A program made the position numbers and the translations under genes. Below the pieces are notes generated by a model, which was not told where the DNA came from, searched no databases, and saw only the letters and a list, made by a program, of their open reading frames with translations. Positions 32,325 to 38,665 of a stretch of 64,000 bases of DNA are shown here, one piece after another (position 1 is the first letter of the stretch; every line of letters begins with the position of its first letter). Source of the DNA: Myxococcales bacterium (GTDB lineage Bacteria; Myxococcota_A; Polyangia; Polyangiales; Ga0077539); assembly GCA_013298625.1 (NCBI GenBank), contig JAAFIF010000026.1:28095-92094 (forward strand). The letters are read 5' to 3'.

Positions 32325-33611
32325 TCAGCCCACGCGCTCGATCACCGCAGCCGCGCCGAGGCCGCCCGCCGCGCAGATGCCCAACACGGCCCGCTGCTTT
32401 CCGCTCAGCGCGAGCTCGTGCGCCATCGTCCCCACCATGCGCGCGCCCGTCGCTCCAAACGGGTGGCCCAGCGCGAGCGAGCCGCCGTGCACGTTCAATC
32501 GCTCGTCCGCGATCTCGCCCGGCGCTTGATCGAGCCCGAGCCGCTCTCGCGCAAACGCGTCGCTCGCCAGCATCTTGGTGACGCTCAACACCTGCGCCGC
32601 GAACGCCTCGTGAAGGTCCACCAGATCGCACTCGTCGAGCCGCAGCCCCGCCTTCGCCAGCACCCTCGGAATCGCGATCGCCGGCCCCATCAACAGCTGA
32701 TCCGCGGGGTCCACGCCGACGTAAGCCCACTCGGTGATCGCCGCCAACGGAGCGAGCCCTAGCGACTTGGCCCGCGACTCGCTCATCAAGAGCACCGCGG
32801 CGGCGCCGTCGGTCAGGGCGCTGGCGTTTCCTGCGGTGATCGTGCCGCGCTTCGAGAACACTGGGTGCAGCTTCGAGAGCTTCTCGACCGTCGTGTCCGC
32901 GCGCACGAGGCCGTCGCTGTGCACCGAGTTACCGTTTGGTAGGTCGACCCTGCACAGCTCGCGGTCGAAGCGCCCCGAGGCGATCGCCGCCGCCGCGCGC
33001 CGATGCGACCGAAGCGCGAACGCGTCCTGCTCCTCTCGGCTGATCCCGTTGCGAGACGCCATGCGCTCGGCCGCCTCGCCCATCACCTCGCCCGTCGTCC
33101 GCTCGGCGATCTTCGGCCGCGTCGGAAGCACATCGGTGAACGGCGCCAGCGCCGCCACCGCCCCCACGTAGTCCCCCATCGACGGCCGCCCCAACGCCAG
33201 CGGCGCCATCGCGTGAACGACCTTCTGCGGGAGCTTCACCTCCGCGTTGCTCGTCGAATCGCTGCCGCCCGCGATCGCTACCGCGCAGTCTCCGCGCTCG
33301 ATCATCGCCGCCGCCGTCGTGATCGCCTGCAGGCCCGAGGCGCACGCGCGCGTCACCGTCATCGCCTCGACCGCCTTCGGCAGCCCCGCGTCGAGCGCCA
33401 CCTCGCGGCCCACGTTGGGCGACGCGCTCGGCAAGATCACGCCGCCCCACACCACGCTCTCGATCAGCGCGCGATCGACCTCGCTCTTGCGCAAGAGCCC
33501 TTCGACCGCGAACCGCGCGAGCGCGATCGTGTCGAGCCGCGTGAACTCCGTAAACGCTTTGACGAACGGCGTCCGCGCCGTCGCCACGATCACCGCTCGC
33601 TCTCGCTTCAT
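32325..33611 (-). CDS. thiolase (acetyl-CoA acyltransferase, FadI-like)
   Basis: VTRACASGLQAITTAA, NVHGGSLALGHPFGATGAR, CAAGGLGAA. Confidence 0.93.
   Translation of the reverse strand: MKRERAVIVATARTPFVKAFTEFTRLDTIALARFAVEGLLRKSEVDRALIESVVWGGVILPSASPNVGREVALDAGLPKAVEAMTVTRACASGLQAITTAAAMIERGDCAVAIAGGSDSTSNAEVKLPQKVVHAMAPLALGRPSMGDYVGAVAALAPFTDVLPTRPKIAERTTGEVMGEAAERMASRNGISREEQDAFALRSHRRAAAAIASGRFDRELCRVDLPNGNSVHSDGLVRADTTVEKLSKLHPVFSKRGTITAGNASALTDGAAAVLLMSESRAKSLGLAPLAAITEWAYVGVDPADQLLMGPAIAIPRVLAKAGLRLDECDLVDLHEAFAAQVLSVTKMLASDAFARERLGLDQAPGEIADERLNVHGGSLALGHPFGATGARMVGTMAHELALSGKQRAVLGICAAGGLGAAAVIERVG
32929..32942. promoter_or_regulatory. intragenic operator-like palindrome in thiolase gene
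   Basis: TTACCGTTTGGTAG. Confidence 0.55.
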
Positions 33612-33616
33612 GCTCG

Positions 33617-35044
33617 TCACGCTCCGACCAACGCGCCGCCGCACACGCGCAGCGTCGCTCCTGTGATCCCTTGCGCTCCTGGGCTCGCGAGCCACGCGAT
33701 CGCCTCGGCCACGTCCTCGGGCTTGCCGCCCTGCGCCAGCGCGCTGAGCCTCCGCGCCGCTTCGCGAATGGTCACCGGCATCGCCTCGGTCATCTTGGTC
33801 TCGATCAACCCCGGCGCGATCGCGTTGACCGTGATCCCTCGCGCCGCCAGCCGCACAGCGCTCGCGCGCACCCAGCCGAGCACGCCCGCCTTGGAGGCAG
33901 CGTACGCGGTTTGGCCGGTGTTTCCCGCGATTCCCGCGACGGACGAGAGCGCGATCACGCGGCCTCCGTCGCGAAGCGAGCCCTCGAGCGCGCTCGTGAG
34001 CGAGAGGATCGCGCCGAGGTTGACCGCGAGCACGTCGTCCCACTGCGCGTCGCTCATCTTCGCCAGGGTCTTGTCCCGCGTGATCCCCGCGTTGTGCACC
34101 AGCACGTCGATCCCGCCGTCCCCGAGCTTCTCCCGCAGCGCCTCGGCCGCGTCCGCGTCGGTGATGTTCACCGTGAGCGCCGCGCCGTGGATCTCTCTCG
34201 CGAGCGCGCTCAGCGAGCCGTCGTCCGCGAGGTCCACGCACCACACGAACGCGCCCTCTCGCGCGAGCGCCCGCGCCGTCGCTGCGCCGATCCCCCGCGC
34301 CGCGCCGGTGACCAACGCCACGCGCCCTTCGAGCGCGCGCTCTCTCAGCGACTCTCGCTCGCCCAGCGAGCGCGCCTCGGCCCCGACCCGCACGCACTGC
34401 CCCGTCACAAACGCGCTGCGCTCGGACAAGAGCCACACGAGCGCAGCGCCCGCCCGCGAGTGCGCGTCGGCCGCGACGCGAAGCAGGTTCGCCGTGCTTC
34501 CGTTGCGGCCGATCTCTTTCGACAGCGAGCGAACGAAGCCGTCGAGCGCCGCCTGCACCGCCGCCGCCTGCGCGTCGTCGCTGACCTCGTCCTCGCGCCG
34601 CGCGAGCACCACCACGCGGCCGCTCGCGCGCAGCCGACCGAGCACAGGGCGCAGCGCGGTGAAGAGCGTCCGCAGCTCGCTCACCGTCCGCGCGTCGCTG
34701 AGGTCCAGCACGACCCCGTCGAGCCGCGTGCTCTCGTTGAGCAGCGCGATCGCGTGCGGCCCGCGCCCGTACGCCTCGCACGCGTCGCGAAAGTGCCCGC
34801 GCAGCCGCTCGAACTCGTCGAGGTACACGTCCGCGCCGGCGCGGGCCAGGGCGTGCGCAGACACCCGCGCGAGCGAGCCGTCACCGACGGCGACGAACAA
34901 GAGCTTCTTGTCTTCGAGCGCGCGCTCGCGCATCGCTTCGCCGTCGCGTCGCAGCACCGCCGGGAGCGCGATCGGGAGCCCCAGCGTCCGCCACACGTTG
35001 CGCGCTTGGGCGCTCTTGCTCAGCTCGAGGAGGATGTCGTTCAT
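33617..35044 (-). CDS. 3-oxoacyl-ACP reductase, long (FabG4-type, two Rossmann domains)
   Basis: VALVTGAARGIGAATARALAREG, NAGITRDKTLAKM, YAASKAGVLGWVRASA; extra N-terminal domain. Confidence 0.9.
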   Translation of the reverse strand: MNDILLELSKSAQARNVWRTLGLPIALPAVLRRDGEAMRERALEDKKLLFVAVGDGSLARVSAHALARAGADVYLDEFERLRGHFRDACEAYGRGPHAIALLNESTRLDGVVLDLSDARTVSELRTLFTALRPVLGRLRASGRVVVLARREDEVSDDAQAAAVQAALDGFVRSLSKEIGRNGSTANLLRVAADAHSRAGAALVWLLSERSAFVTGQCVRVGAEARSLGERESLRERALEGRVALVTGAARGIGAATARALAREGAFVWCVDLADDGSLSALAREIHGAALTVNITDADAAEALREKLGDGGIDVLVHNAGITRDKTLAKMSDAQWDDVLAVNLGAILSLTSALEGSLRDGGRVIALSSVAGIAGNTGQTAYAASKAGVLGWVRASAVRLAARGITVNAIAPGLIETKMTEAMPVTIREAARRLSALAQGGKPEDVAEAIAWLASPGAQGITGATLRVCGGALVGA

Positions 35045-35931
35045 CGAAGGACTCCGAAGGTTGCCGAGAGGTAGGCCGGGCCGCTCGGGCCGTCGGCGAT
35101 CCAGCACTGGTTGCTCGCGCGGTCGAGGTAGAGCCCGACGCGCGCGGGCAGCGCGAGCGGGCGCAGAAAGCGGACGTCCATCGAGCCGAGCCGCGTCGGG
35201 TCACCCACGAACACCGCGCGGTTGAGCCCCTCGATCGAGCGCGCCATCGACGCGAACCCGTGGAGGATCACCGATCGAAAGCCCGCCATCTTCGCCGCGG
35301 GAGCGATCCAATGAATGGGGTTCACGTCCCCCGTCAGCAAGGCGAAATCTCGCCCCGCCGTGCGCGAGAGCGACCAGTACGCGAGCTCTTTGGCCTGCGC
35401 TCCTGCGCGCTCGGGCTCGCGCTTGTCGCGGGACTTCGACGGCTTACCAAACGGTAGGTACGTGTGCAGCAGCGCGCTGAGCGCCGCGGGGTCGCCCTCG
35501 GGGCCGGTCTCGACCTCGGTGGTGATCTTGGCGCGGTGCTCGTCGGCTTGCACCGAGGCGAGCCTCGCGCGGACGCGCAGCGAGCGGCCCTGCGCGATGG
35601 CCCCGGCGCGCACGATGGTGACGCCGGCGTTGAGCACGCGGGTCATCGGCCACGGCAGCGCCGAGAGCGCCTTGGACACCGCAGAGAACGTCCACTGCGC
35701 GAACATCGACGCCGGAATCACCGATCGATACCAGCCCGGATCACCGCCCGCGTTCTTGATAAACGCCCGCACGAGCGCCTCGGGCGGCGCCGCCACGCGC
35801 TCTTCGACCCACGGCCCCGGCGTCGCGGGCGCATCCCCTTCGGTCCGCGCGCCGAGCGAGCGAAGCGCCACGCGGCCGAGGGCGGCCAGCGACGAGCCTT
35901 GCGACAAAATGTGCAGCGCCGAGACGCTCAT
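35041..35931 (-). CDS. MaoC-like dehydratase (double hot-dog)
   Basis: LTGDVNPIHWIAPAAKMAGFRSVILHGFASMA; 4-bp overlap with fabG-like gene. Confidence 0.9.
   Translation of the reverse strand: MSVSALHILSQGSSLAALGRVALRSLGARTEGDAPATPGPWVEERVAAPPEALVRAFIKNAGGDPGWYRSVIPASMFAQWTFSAVSKALSALPWPMTRVLNAGVTIVRAGAIAQGRSLRVRARLASVQADEHRAKITTEVETGPEGDPAALSALLHTYLPFGKPSKSRDKREPERAGAQAKELAYWSLSRTAGRDFALLTGDVNPIHWIAPAAKMAGFRSVILHGFASMARSIEGLNRAVFVGDPTRLGSMDVRFLRPLALPARVGLYLDRASNQCWIADGPSGPAYLSATFGVLR
35445..35458. promoter_or_regulatory. intragenic operator-like palindrome in MaoC-like gene
   Basis: TTACCAAACGGTAG. Confidence 0.55.
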
Positions 35932-35934
35932 CGC

Positions 35935-37854
35935 TCACTCCGCCGCCTGCGCGATCGCCTCGGGCTGCGCGGCGATCTTGGCGAGCATCTTCGCGCCCGT
36001 CGTGGTGATCTCTTTGAAGAGCAGCTCGTCGCGCAGCTCGCAGCGGTCGAGAAAGCGCTCGAGCAGCGCGCGTCGGGCGGGGTCTCGCTGGCACTGCTCC
36101 CACAGGACCTCGCAGATCGCCTCGTCGGTGAGCATGCGCGTGAGCCGCTCGGCGTGCAGCATGGCGATGGCGAAGTCGCGCTTGGGGTCCCAGTTCTTGG
36201 TGAGCGCGCCCTTCCACTGACCGATCGGTAGGCGACGAACCCCTCCCAGCTTGTCGATCGCCGTGCGCGCCACCAGCGAGCGCTCTGCGCCGCGGCAGAG
36301 CGACTGCACCTTGGCCACCCTGCGCTCGAGCGGGTCCGCCGCGGTGCGCGCCCGCAGCGCTTGCTGAGCGCTCCTGCGAGCGAACCCGCCGGGGTCCTTC
36401 ACGATCCCGTTGAGCGTGTCCTTCATCGCCATCAGCGACTGGATCTGGCTCGTCCCCTCGTAGATCGGGAGGACCAGCGCGTCGCGCAAGAGCTTCTCTG
36501 CGCCGTACTCCTTGGTGTACCCGACGCCGCCGTGGATCTGCACGCAGCGCCGCGCGTGCTCGACGGCCTTCTCTGCGGTGATGTACTTGAGCAGCGGGGT
36601 GAACCGCCGCGACCGCGCCCGCACCCGCGGCAGCTCGCGCTCGACGCGCTGCTTCTCTGCGTCCGAGAGGGCGCCCTCGAAGCGCTGCAGGATCCCCAGC
36701 TTCTGCGCGCTCTCTTCGGCGTACGCCGAGGCGACGGCGAGCGCGCGCAGGGCGAGCAAGTCCGTCTCCATCTCGTCGAGGTAGTCCGCGATCATCTCGT
36801 GCTGGGCGATCGCCTTGCCCATCGAGCGTCGACCCGAGGCGTACTCGCGCGCGAGGCGCAGGGCGGCCTCGATGATCCCGATGCCCTCGAACGAGACGCC
36901 CACGCGGGCGTTGTTCATGAGCACCAGCATGTACTTGAAGCCCTCGCCGCGGGCGCCGATGAGCTGCGCCGGGGTGTCTTCGTACGTGAGCGCGGCGGTC
37001 ACCGACGAGTTGTGCCCGAGCTTGTCCTCGACGCGGTCGATCGTGACGAAGCGCTGTCGCTTACCGTCTGGTAGGTCTTCGTACGCTTGCACGAGAAACA
37101 TCGAGAGCCCGTCGAGCCCGAGCCCCTCGCCCTCGACGGCGTCGTCGGTGCGGGCGATCACCAGGTGGTACTTGGCGTGGCCCGAGGTGATGAAGATCTT
37201 CTGCCCGCTGATGCGCCACTGGCCGTCCTCGCCGAGCGTCCCGCGGGCGCGCAGGCGGGCCATGTCGCTGCCGGCGTCGGGCTCGGTGATGACCATGCAG
37301 CCCCAGGCGTCGCCGCGGACGATCTCTTCGATCTGCGCTTGAAATCGTGTGCTGGCGATCTTGCCGCCCTGCACGTCGAAGCGCGTCGTCCCCTCGTAGA
37401 TCGAGTAGGCGAGCATGGCCATGCCGATGCCCGCGTGAAAGCTGAAGTGGGTCATCGCGCCGACGTCGCCGCGCGCGATCAGCTCGCCCGAGAGGTAGTA
37501 GACGAGCAGCGGGACGTTGAGCCCGCCGAGCTCGCGGGGAAACACCATCTTGTGCAGCTCGTTCTCGCGAAACACGTCGAACGCGCGGCGCACGGCCTCG
37601 CCCTCGACCACCTCGCCGTCCACCACGTGCGGGTGCTGGCGGTCCATCGCCGCCGAGCGCTCGCCGACGTACTTCGCCGCGAGCTCGCCGATGGACTCGA
37701 GCACCTCGCGGTAGAACGCGATGGCCTCGGGGACGTCCTTCATCGCGTCCGGCGCGCGAAATCCGTACTCCGTGGCCTCGATGAGCGGCGCCCAATCGAT
37801 GCCGCGGTCGACGTACCAGCGCAGGTCTTCGTTGTCGGTGAAGTAGTTGCTCAT
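35935..37854 (-). CDS. acyl-CoA dehydrogenase
   Basis: ITEPDAGSDMARL, QKIFITSGHAKYHLVIART, MNNARVGVSFEGIGI, QIHGGVGYTKEYGAEKLLRDALVLPIYEGTSQIQ. Confidence 0.95.
   Translation of the reverse strand: MSNYFTDNEDLRWYVDRGIDWAPLIEATEYGFRAPDAMKDVPEAIAFYREVLESIGELAAKYVGERSAAMDRQHPHVVDGEVVEGEAVRRAFDVFRENELHKMVFPRELGGLNVPLLVYYLSGELIARGDVGAMTHFSFHAGIGMAMLAYSIYEGTTRFDVQGGKIASTRFQAQIEEIVRGDAWGCMVITEPDAGSDMARLRARGTLGEDGQWRISGQKIFITSGHAKYHLVIARTDDAVEGEGLGLDGLSMFLVQAYEDLPDGKRQRFVTIDRVEDKLGHNSSVTAALTYEDTPAQLIGARGEGFKYMLVLMNNARVGVSFEGIGIIEAALRLAREYASGRRSMGKAIAQHEMIADYLDEMETDLLALRALAVASAYAEESAQKLGILQRFEGALSDAEKQRVERELPRVRARSRRFTPLLKYITAEKAVEHARRCVQIHGGVGYTKEYGAEKLLRDALVLPIYEGTSQIQSLMAMKDTLNGIVKDPGGFARRSAQQALRARTAADPLERRVAKVQSLCRGAERSLVARTAIDKLGGVRRLPIGQWKGALTKNWDPKRDFAIAMLHAERLTRMLTDEAICEVLWEQCQRDPARRALLERFLDRCELRDELLFKEITTTGAKMLAKIAAQPEAIAQAAE
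36218..36231. promoter_or_regulatory. second intragenic operator-like palindrome in acyl-CoA dehydrogenase gene
   Basis: TGACCGATCGGTAG, one deviation from the consensus. Confidence 0.45.
37061..37074. promoter_or_regulatory. intragenic operator-like palindrome in acyl-CoA dehydrogenase gene
   Basis: TTACCGTCTGGTAG, same YTACC-N4-GGTAR pattern as the tetR promoter sites. Confidence 0.55.
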
Positions 37855-37859
37855 GGCCT

Positions 37860-38597
37860 TCACTTCTTGCTGTGGGTTGCCGTTGATCGGGGCGCTTTGC
37901 GTTTGCTGCGCGCAGGCGCGGGAGCTTCGATCGCCGCAGGGGCGTCCTTGCTCTGCGCGCCCGCGCGAAAGAGAGAGCTGCGCGCGATGCGCGAGAGCTC
38001 GCGCGCGTAGCGGGTCTGGGCGTCGGCCGTGCCGAGGGCGGCGGGCATCACGTGCACGCCCGCGGCGGCGGACAGGACGAAGAGCAGCACGTTGAGGACG
38101 TACGCCTCGGGGTCGAGCCCGGTGTGGTGCTGGCCGCGCTCGACGCCGCTGTCGATGTAGCCGGCCACCGCGCGCAGCCACGGGCGCACGGGCCCTTCGA
38201 GCAAGCGGCGGACGACGTCGGGGCGGTCGAGGGCCTCGCGCAAGATCAGCCGCGCGCGGTCGGGCTCGGTGAAGAAGAACGTAAACAGCTCGCCGAACAC
38301 CGCGTCGAAGCGGTCTTCGCTGGCCGTGGCGGCGAGCAAGAGCTTGGGGAGCCGCTCGTTCCAGTGGTTGAGGATCTCGTCGAGGACCGCCTCGCGGATG
38401 CTCTCTTTCGAGGGAAAGTGATGCAGCACCGCCTGCTTGGTCACCCCGAGCGCGTCCGCGATGTCTTGCACCGACGTCCCGTCGAACCCGTGCGCCGCGA
38501 GCAGCTTCGTCGCCGCGAGGAGGGTCTTCGCGCGTCCGTCGGCGCCCGGCGCCCCCGCGCCAGGCTGTGCAACTGCTGGTCTTCGTACGCCTACCAT
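37860..38597 (-). CDS. TetR-family transcriptional regulator
   Basis: LLAATKLLAAHGFDGTSVQDIADALGVTKQAVLHHFPSKESI HTH. Confidence 0.92.
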   Translation of the reverse strand: MVGVRRPAVAQPGAGAPGADGRAKTLLAATKLLAAHGFDGTSVQDIADALGVTKQAVLHHFPSKESIREAVLDEILNHWNERLPKLLLAATASEDRFDAVFGELFTFFFTEPDRARLILREALDRPDVVRRLLEGPVRPWLRAVAGYIDSGVERGQHHTGLDPEAYVLNVLLFVLSAAAGVHVMPAALGTADAQTRYARELSRIARSSLFRAGAQSKDAPAAIEAPAPARSKRKAPRSTATHSKK

Positions 38598-38627
38598 CTG
38601 GTGAAGACGGTACTTACCAGATGGTAA
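38591..38627. promoter_or_regulatory. two TetR operator-like palindromes at tetR start/promoter
   Basis: CTACCATCTGGTGA (38591-38604, overlaps the tetR start codon) and TTACCAGATGGTAA (38614-38627). Confidence 0.75.
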
Positions 38628-38665
38628 GTTGTGCGCAAGAGGGGGTCTTCGCCTTCGCTGCTCCG

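Follow-up and report, generated by a model that had tools for sequence, protein, structure and literature searches.

Putative TetR operators recur within the coding sequences of a myxobacterial fatty-acid degradation operon

The lac and gal operons each have, within one of their structural genes, a second operator (lac O2, gal OI) that acts by looping over a few hundred base pairs. A regulator bound in a transcribed or coding region can also stall RNA polymerase, as has been described for C.Kpn2I (PMC6237814) and for E. coli PurR at purB and B. subtilis CodY (cited in PMC10294691), each with single sites in one gene. Cluster A mycobacteriophages have stoperators: besides its operator at a promoter, a repressor of the L5 type has many further sites spread along transcribed DNA, where it is proposed to halt elongation (PMC9283540, PMC6550527). 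Here we analyse a 64-kb window (contig JAAFIF010000026.1, positions 28,095 to 92,094) from the 9.81-Mb draft genome of an uncultured myxobacterium, in which the predicted operator of a TetR regulator recurs inside the coding sequences of the regulator's own operon. The operon is of the fatty-acid degradation type, is led by tetR and covers about 6.3 kb of the minus strand in the order tetR, acyl-CoA dehydrogenase, MaoC, FabG, thiolase.

Stoperators are the closest working analogue of this arrangement. They serve phage immunity and are asymmetric 13-mers in short intergenic spaces, bound by a monomeric repressor, and their orientation matters; the site described here is a symmetric TetR palindrome within the codons of a chromosomal catabolic operon. 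The two may work alike, but our operon is not a member of the stoperator class. Where C.Kpn2I, PurR and CodY have single sites, the operon described here has four, spread over three of its genes, and other clusters carry more; a stall of the polymerase is what we propose for them. FadR of Sulfolobus acidocaldarius, also a TetR protein, regulates beta-oxidation and esterase genes from few genomic sites (PMC6449355), of which one with low enrichment lies in a coding sequence, without a repeated series within an operon. A literature search for a series of TetR operators in the genes of the regulator's own operon found none, with most subscription journals outside its coverage.

The operator can be defined from independent promoters. 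Orthologous loci were collected with an alignment of the acyl-CoA dehydrogenase. From families other than the window's, 58 tetR-linked ones were used, and 55 of these have an exact TACCN4GGTA near the tetR start. We trained a 22-position (22-bp) matrix solely on these non-family tetR promoter sites. In the 64-kb window it reaches 6 bits or more at exactly six places, two in the tetR promoter and four inside genes. Since the matrix comes from promoters alone, the intragenic sites resemble the extended promoter operator, beyond its core. A first-pass annotation of the DNA had listed the same six sites, correctly to within one base, and had noticed no copies elsewhere in the window. Four sites match the core exactly (starting at 32930, 35445, 37062 and 38615) and two have one mismatch (GACC... 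at 36219 and ...GGTG at 38592).

All six are given here on the minus strand. The promoter operator O1 (TTACCAGATGGTAA, 38614 to 38627, matrix score 22.4) lies a few bases behind a TTGCGC hexamer that resembles a -35 element. Operator O2 (CTACCATCTGGTGA, 38591 to 38604, score 14.0), 23 bp from O1, covers the tetR ATG at 38597-38595. Two putative operators lie in the acyl-CoA dehydrogenase gene, one at 37061 to 37074 (within EDLPDGKRQ, score 17.6) and the one-mismatch site at 36218 to 36231 (RRLPIGQWK, 12.7). The MaoC gene carries the highest-scoring site of the window (35444 to 35457, TYLPFGKPS, 23.6) and the thiolase gene the last (32929 to 32942, VDLPNGNSV, 17.4), and the FabG gene has none. 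The intragenic copies all read CTA CCN NNN GGT followed by A or C, and encode LPNGN, LPFGK, LPIGQ and LPDGK.

The protein expected to bind these sites is encoded by tetR (37860 to 38597, minus strand), the putative autoregulator of the operon. It has both the TetR_N helix-turn-helix (Pfam PF00440, 1.1e-15) and the TetR fold: its AlphaFold model (pLDDT 83) is closest to solved TetR regulators including KstR2, FadR, EthR and RutR. A palindromic operator at the promoter of its own gene, a mark of TetR-family autorepressors, is present as well. RutR, with a related TetR fold and a similar DNA-binding domain, has the operator core ACC-N4-GGT and also binds within genes; we know of no series of RutR sites within the genes of its own operon. 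A strict 16-mer version of the operator, CYTACCRNNYGGTARG, occurs at 35 places in 38 whole genomes, and its reversed control at four. Five occurrences of the 16-mer lie outside the family, four of them being tetR promoters, and it is absent (zero places) from the three family genomes that lack an ortholog of this TetR (G003, G006, G007). Taken together, the promoter-trained matrix, the conservation of the half-sites and the recurrence in orthologous operons make TetR binding inside its own operon, one of the two readings offered by the first-pass annotation, a well supported prediction.

One could argue that short palindromes of this kind arise by chance or codon bias, that they are RNA hairpins (the motif is a palindrome whose flanks could extend a stem) or that they belong to a mobile palindrome family. 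Such explanations are hardly credible. With up to one mismatch the window contains 10 matches, compared with 1.9 in dinucleotide shuffles, and none of 100 shuffles reaches 10. The bacterium's own genome has 18 places with TACCN4GGTA, fewer than the 27 of the reversed pattern that served as control in whole-genome counts, and 17 once a contig-end duplicate is removed; four of these exact places lie within the 6.3-kb operon (binomial P about 5e-10), and the motif is thus not equally common elsewhere in the genome, an outcome that would have refuted the first-pass annotation. The duplicate stems from two contig ends (L066 and L067; G000:C7 and G000:C105) with an identical 120-bp stretch in common; the two probably adjoin in the genome, and one site was counted twice. 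We compared 96 half-sites of equal G+C: TACC has four palindromic copies in the operon, more than any other, and the rest average 0.04. TACC has 28 copies summed over this and seven orthologous operons, where the next half-site has five, and none in the other 57 kb of the window.

Codon usage argues in the same direction. CTA had been called an unexpected choice in such DNA, and indeed, across nine genes of the window, it accounts for only five of 526 Leu codons, with four of the five in sites; TTA is not used at all. With the codons of the four structural genes shuffled synonymously, none of 3000 trials reaches three exact sites, and the four intragenic matrix matches of the operon compare with 0.065 expected. 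Nine family operons together have 18 intragenic matches where codon-shuffled genes give 0.20; as family members share ancestry these are not 18 independent events, which leaves the single-genome test unaffected. Intragenic sites are thus about 60-90 fold enriched over codon-shuffled sequence. The clustering of the sites is real and far above chance. As for an RNA hairpin, we rejected it: the stem letters are fixed and do not covary, and pairing of the flanks is close to what independent halves would give (0.83 versus 0.77, 0.70 versus 0.65). A mobile palindrome is contradicted by the low copy number (about 10 per genome) and by orthologues that align without gaps at the sites.

Comparison with two congeners (acyl-CoA dehydrogenase 82% identical) suggests what is being conserved. 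The MaoC, thiolase and second acyl-CoA dehydrogenase sites are found at the same positions, with unchanged half-sites. What differs is the spacer of four bases, the base that opens the Leu codon (CTA/TTA) and the residues nearby. Residues change between F and L, K and R, N and S, and T, S and V, giving LPFGK/LPLGR/LPLGK and LPNGN/LPNGS. Both congeners keep the half-sites of the MaoC site (35444) with altered spacer and amino acids, and at the thiolase site (32929) they read TTA/CTA CCA AAY GGT ARC; at 36218, CTA CCG ATC GGT CAG is identical in both. In codon alignments of the three species, rare codons are conserved in 11 of 11 cases at sites and in 2 of 11 elsewhere (Fisher 2e-4). Because the half-sites persist through changes of the spacer, of the synonymous base and even of amino acids, selection acts on the DNA, beyond the coding constraint, as the first-pass annotation had proposed for the half-sites. 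This supports the view that the intragenic copies are held by purifying selection.

The first-pass annotation had also considered that short palindromes were inserted into protein loops. This idea is refuted by the site at 37061. The homologous LPDG loop carries the site in distant relatives (genus g3, L051, L087, L089), and about 20 other orthologues have the LPDG peptide without it, usually written CTG CCC GAC GGC. Since these site-free orthologues exist, and site-bearing and site-free proteins align without gaps, the peptide is older than the site, which was written into existing codons. At the thiolase, MaoC and second acyl-CoA dehydrogenase sites the residue is Leu in the genus and mostly Thr, Val/Ile or another one in relatives, Thr or Val/Ile being usual at the thiolase and MaoC positions. 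We infer that these shifts to Leu, which make CTA/TTA possible, were selected to allow the site. The pattern suggests that coding sequence, including the choice of amino acids, can be shaped by repressor binding.

A further possibility is that the sites control promoters or antisense transcripts within the genes. At promoter-type sites, TTGA, TTGC or TTGNC begins 12-14 bp before TACC in 47 of 58 cases, which places O1 between -35 and -10; the GGTAR half can, we think, supply the start of the -10 element. Many orthologues have a second, often degenerate, half-conserved copy about 22 bp downstream, which here covers the start codon. This -35 context, read in the direction of transcription, is missing from all 20 intragenic sites that we checked and from almost every other non-tetR site we looked at. 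A crude scan for sigma-70-like promoters in this GC-rich DNA found none between 32200 and 38800, and the thiolase site lies in the gene that closes the operon. We therefore regard the intragenic sites as putative operators without promoters. Regulators bound in coding sequences can act on cryptic promoters (PMC9600179), and the first-pass annotation had named control of internal promoters as an option; given the missing -35 context and the empty scan we rejected it as very unlikely. A side observation at the promoter itself (38595-38640) is that O2 lies over the ATG with the -35-like TTGCGC only about 40 bp upstream, and the mRNA from which tetR is translated may have little or no leader.

The explanation we favour, and consider narrowly probable, is that the sites are distributed roadblocks to elongation; the sequence supports the operator identity of the sites, selection on their half-sites and their lack of promoter context, and we infer TetR binding, the block and the ligand. 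TetR would repress its own operon from two operators, O1 between -35 and -10 and O2 across the start codon. Further copies of this operator would be placed in the downstream coding sequences by means of rare codons (CTA/TTA, GGT, GTA) and tolerated amino-acid changes, and each occupied copy would stall RNA polymerase that had slipped past the promoter or arrived by read-through from DNA upstream. The operon would be closed at several points and would open everywhere at once when a ligand, presumably acyl-CoA, removes TetR. Read-through could come from glgP, which is co-directional and lies 68 bp upstream of tetR; we looked for a terminator in this gap and found none. In one congener (L085) a divergent gene takes the place of glgP, so the point about read-through is a local one. 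Spurious transcription is a problem of long operons, for which conjugation operons use internal terminators (PMC8955417), and countering it is a suggested purpose of the sites here.

Roadblock and looping had been put forward side by side by the first-pass annotation; the evidence favours the former and proves neither. Auxiliary operators would loop the DNA or raise the local repressor concentration, with intragenic TetR aiding the occupancy of O1 and O2 as lac O2 in lacZ does for its operon. The same operator does occur at the promoter and within genes, with several sites in 6 kb, and in a hydrolase cluster of the genus sites about 600 bp before a gene and 39 bp and 376 bp inside it are spread in a lac-like manner. 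Yet the sites of the operon lie 1.5-5.7 kb from O1, far beyond the few hundred base pairs of lac and gal, distances to shared sites vary from one congener to another by as much as about 120 bp, and positions turn over between genera, where looping would more naturally keep distance. TetR dimers normally place both DNA-binding domains on one palindrome, and a bridge by a dimer needs extra assembly. We consider auxiliary operators rather unlikely and rejected looping of fixed phase or geometry, as the spacing is not kept between congeners. Roadblocks are preferred because sites occur anywhere in the transcribed unit, away from promoters (in the last gene, at the tetR stop codon, in intercistronic gaps), because promoter elements are lacking and because positions differ between genera while several sites stay in each operon.

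Several findings weigh against a function as roadblocks. No intragenic sites are present in 48 of the 50 orthologous operons tested outside the family, and neither congener has the site at 37061. Binding maps commonly show regulator sites within genes, and these are often dismissed as inert noise. Those of other regulators, among them E. coli RutR, itself of the TetR family (Shimada et al. 2008), were reported to be without effect on transcript levels (cited in PMC6397444), and PhoB sites are likewise reported inert (PMC10294691). The sites here could be real and inert, or decoys that titrate TetR, which we think improbable. PhoB intragenic sites are many and mostly unconserved (PMC10294691); the present ones are few and strong, lie in the regulator's own operon and have conserved half-sites. 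This conservation sets them apart, and selection implies function, with which decoy titration remains compatible. The operon thus is a compact case in which few, strong sites are held by selection against codon bias, and whether intragenic operators act becomes directly testable with synonymous mutants.

The promoter site is found class-wide in orthologous operons, and intragenic sites are essentially limited to the family and at least one separate lineage (L133). Fifty operons outside the family have three intragenic matches where 0.15 are expected, and two of the three are in L133. There, about seven operator-like sites follow the same operon (L133:2746-7879), some just before ribosome-binding sites, which suggests an independent origin. 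The first-pass annotation's description of one reading frame encoding LPxG holds for the four sites of our operon and fails elsewhere, where the motif encodes Y-x-x-V (TAC CNN NNG GTA) or uses a stop codon (CCNNNNGGTAA/TAG). As the Tyr-x-x-Val frame is the usual one elsewhere in the genus and stop-codon use occurs in other genera, the recurring unit is a DNA motif and not a peptide. A broader idea, plausible if still tentative, is a cellular stoperator system in which a metabolite-responsive TetR would close a catabolic regulon of the chromosome at several places along its genes, with operators in rare codons and adapted residues that are renewed at new positions as lineages diverge.

Further sites occur outside the operon. 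An alpha/beta hydrolase gene has two sites 337 bp apart in all three species of the genus, and other sites in the genus lie in the gene preceding it, in a metallophosphoesterase gene and within a gene beside squalene-hopene cyclase. Two divergent neighbour genes of G005 (L187:6551, L187:8308) both end in CTACCGATCGGTAG, stop codon included, and a third stop-codon site is in a Nudix gene (L186:7815). In genus g3, fabG has a weaker common site, TTACCRAMCGGTCGG (L088:5108, L089:9516, L092:3748).

The nearest named relatives of the host are metagenome-assembled genomes labelled Myxococcales or Deltaproteobacteria, and the carriers of distributed sites known so far are metagenome-derived drafts. 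The structural genes of its operon, all on the minus strand, encode an acyl-CoA dehydrogenase (35935 to 37854, Pfam Acyl-CoA_dh_1/M), a MaoC-like hydratase/dehydratase (35041 to 35931, Pfam MaoC_dehydratas, 9.7e-14), a 3-oxoacyl-ACP reductase of the long FabG type (33617 to 35044, NCBIfam NF006110, 480 bits with a cut-off of 410) and, in last place, an acetyl-CoA acyltransferase or thiolase (32325 to 33611, Pfam Thiolase_N/C). Elsewhere in the genome, an operator-like site with a matrix score of 21.4 (G000:C22:240657, the same as L069:5658) lies inside a gene that adjoins a RecG-like gene and, from its sequence, looks like an elongation factor of the GreA/GreB type. Factors such as GreA rescue RNA polymerase that has stalled.

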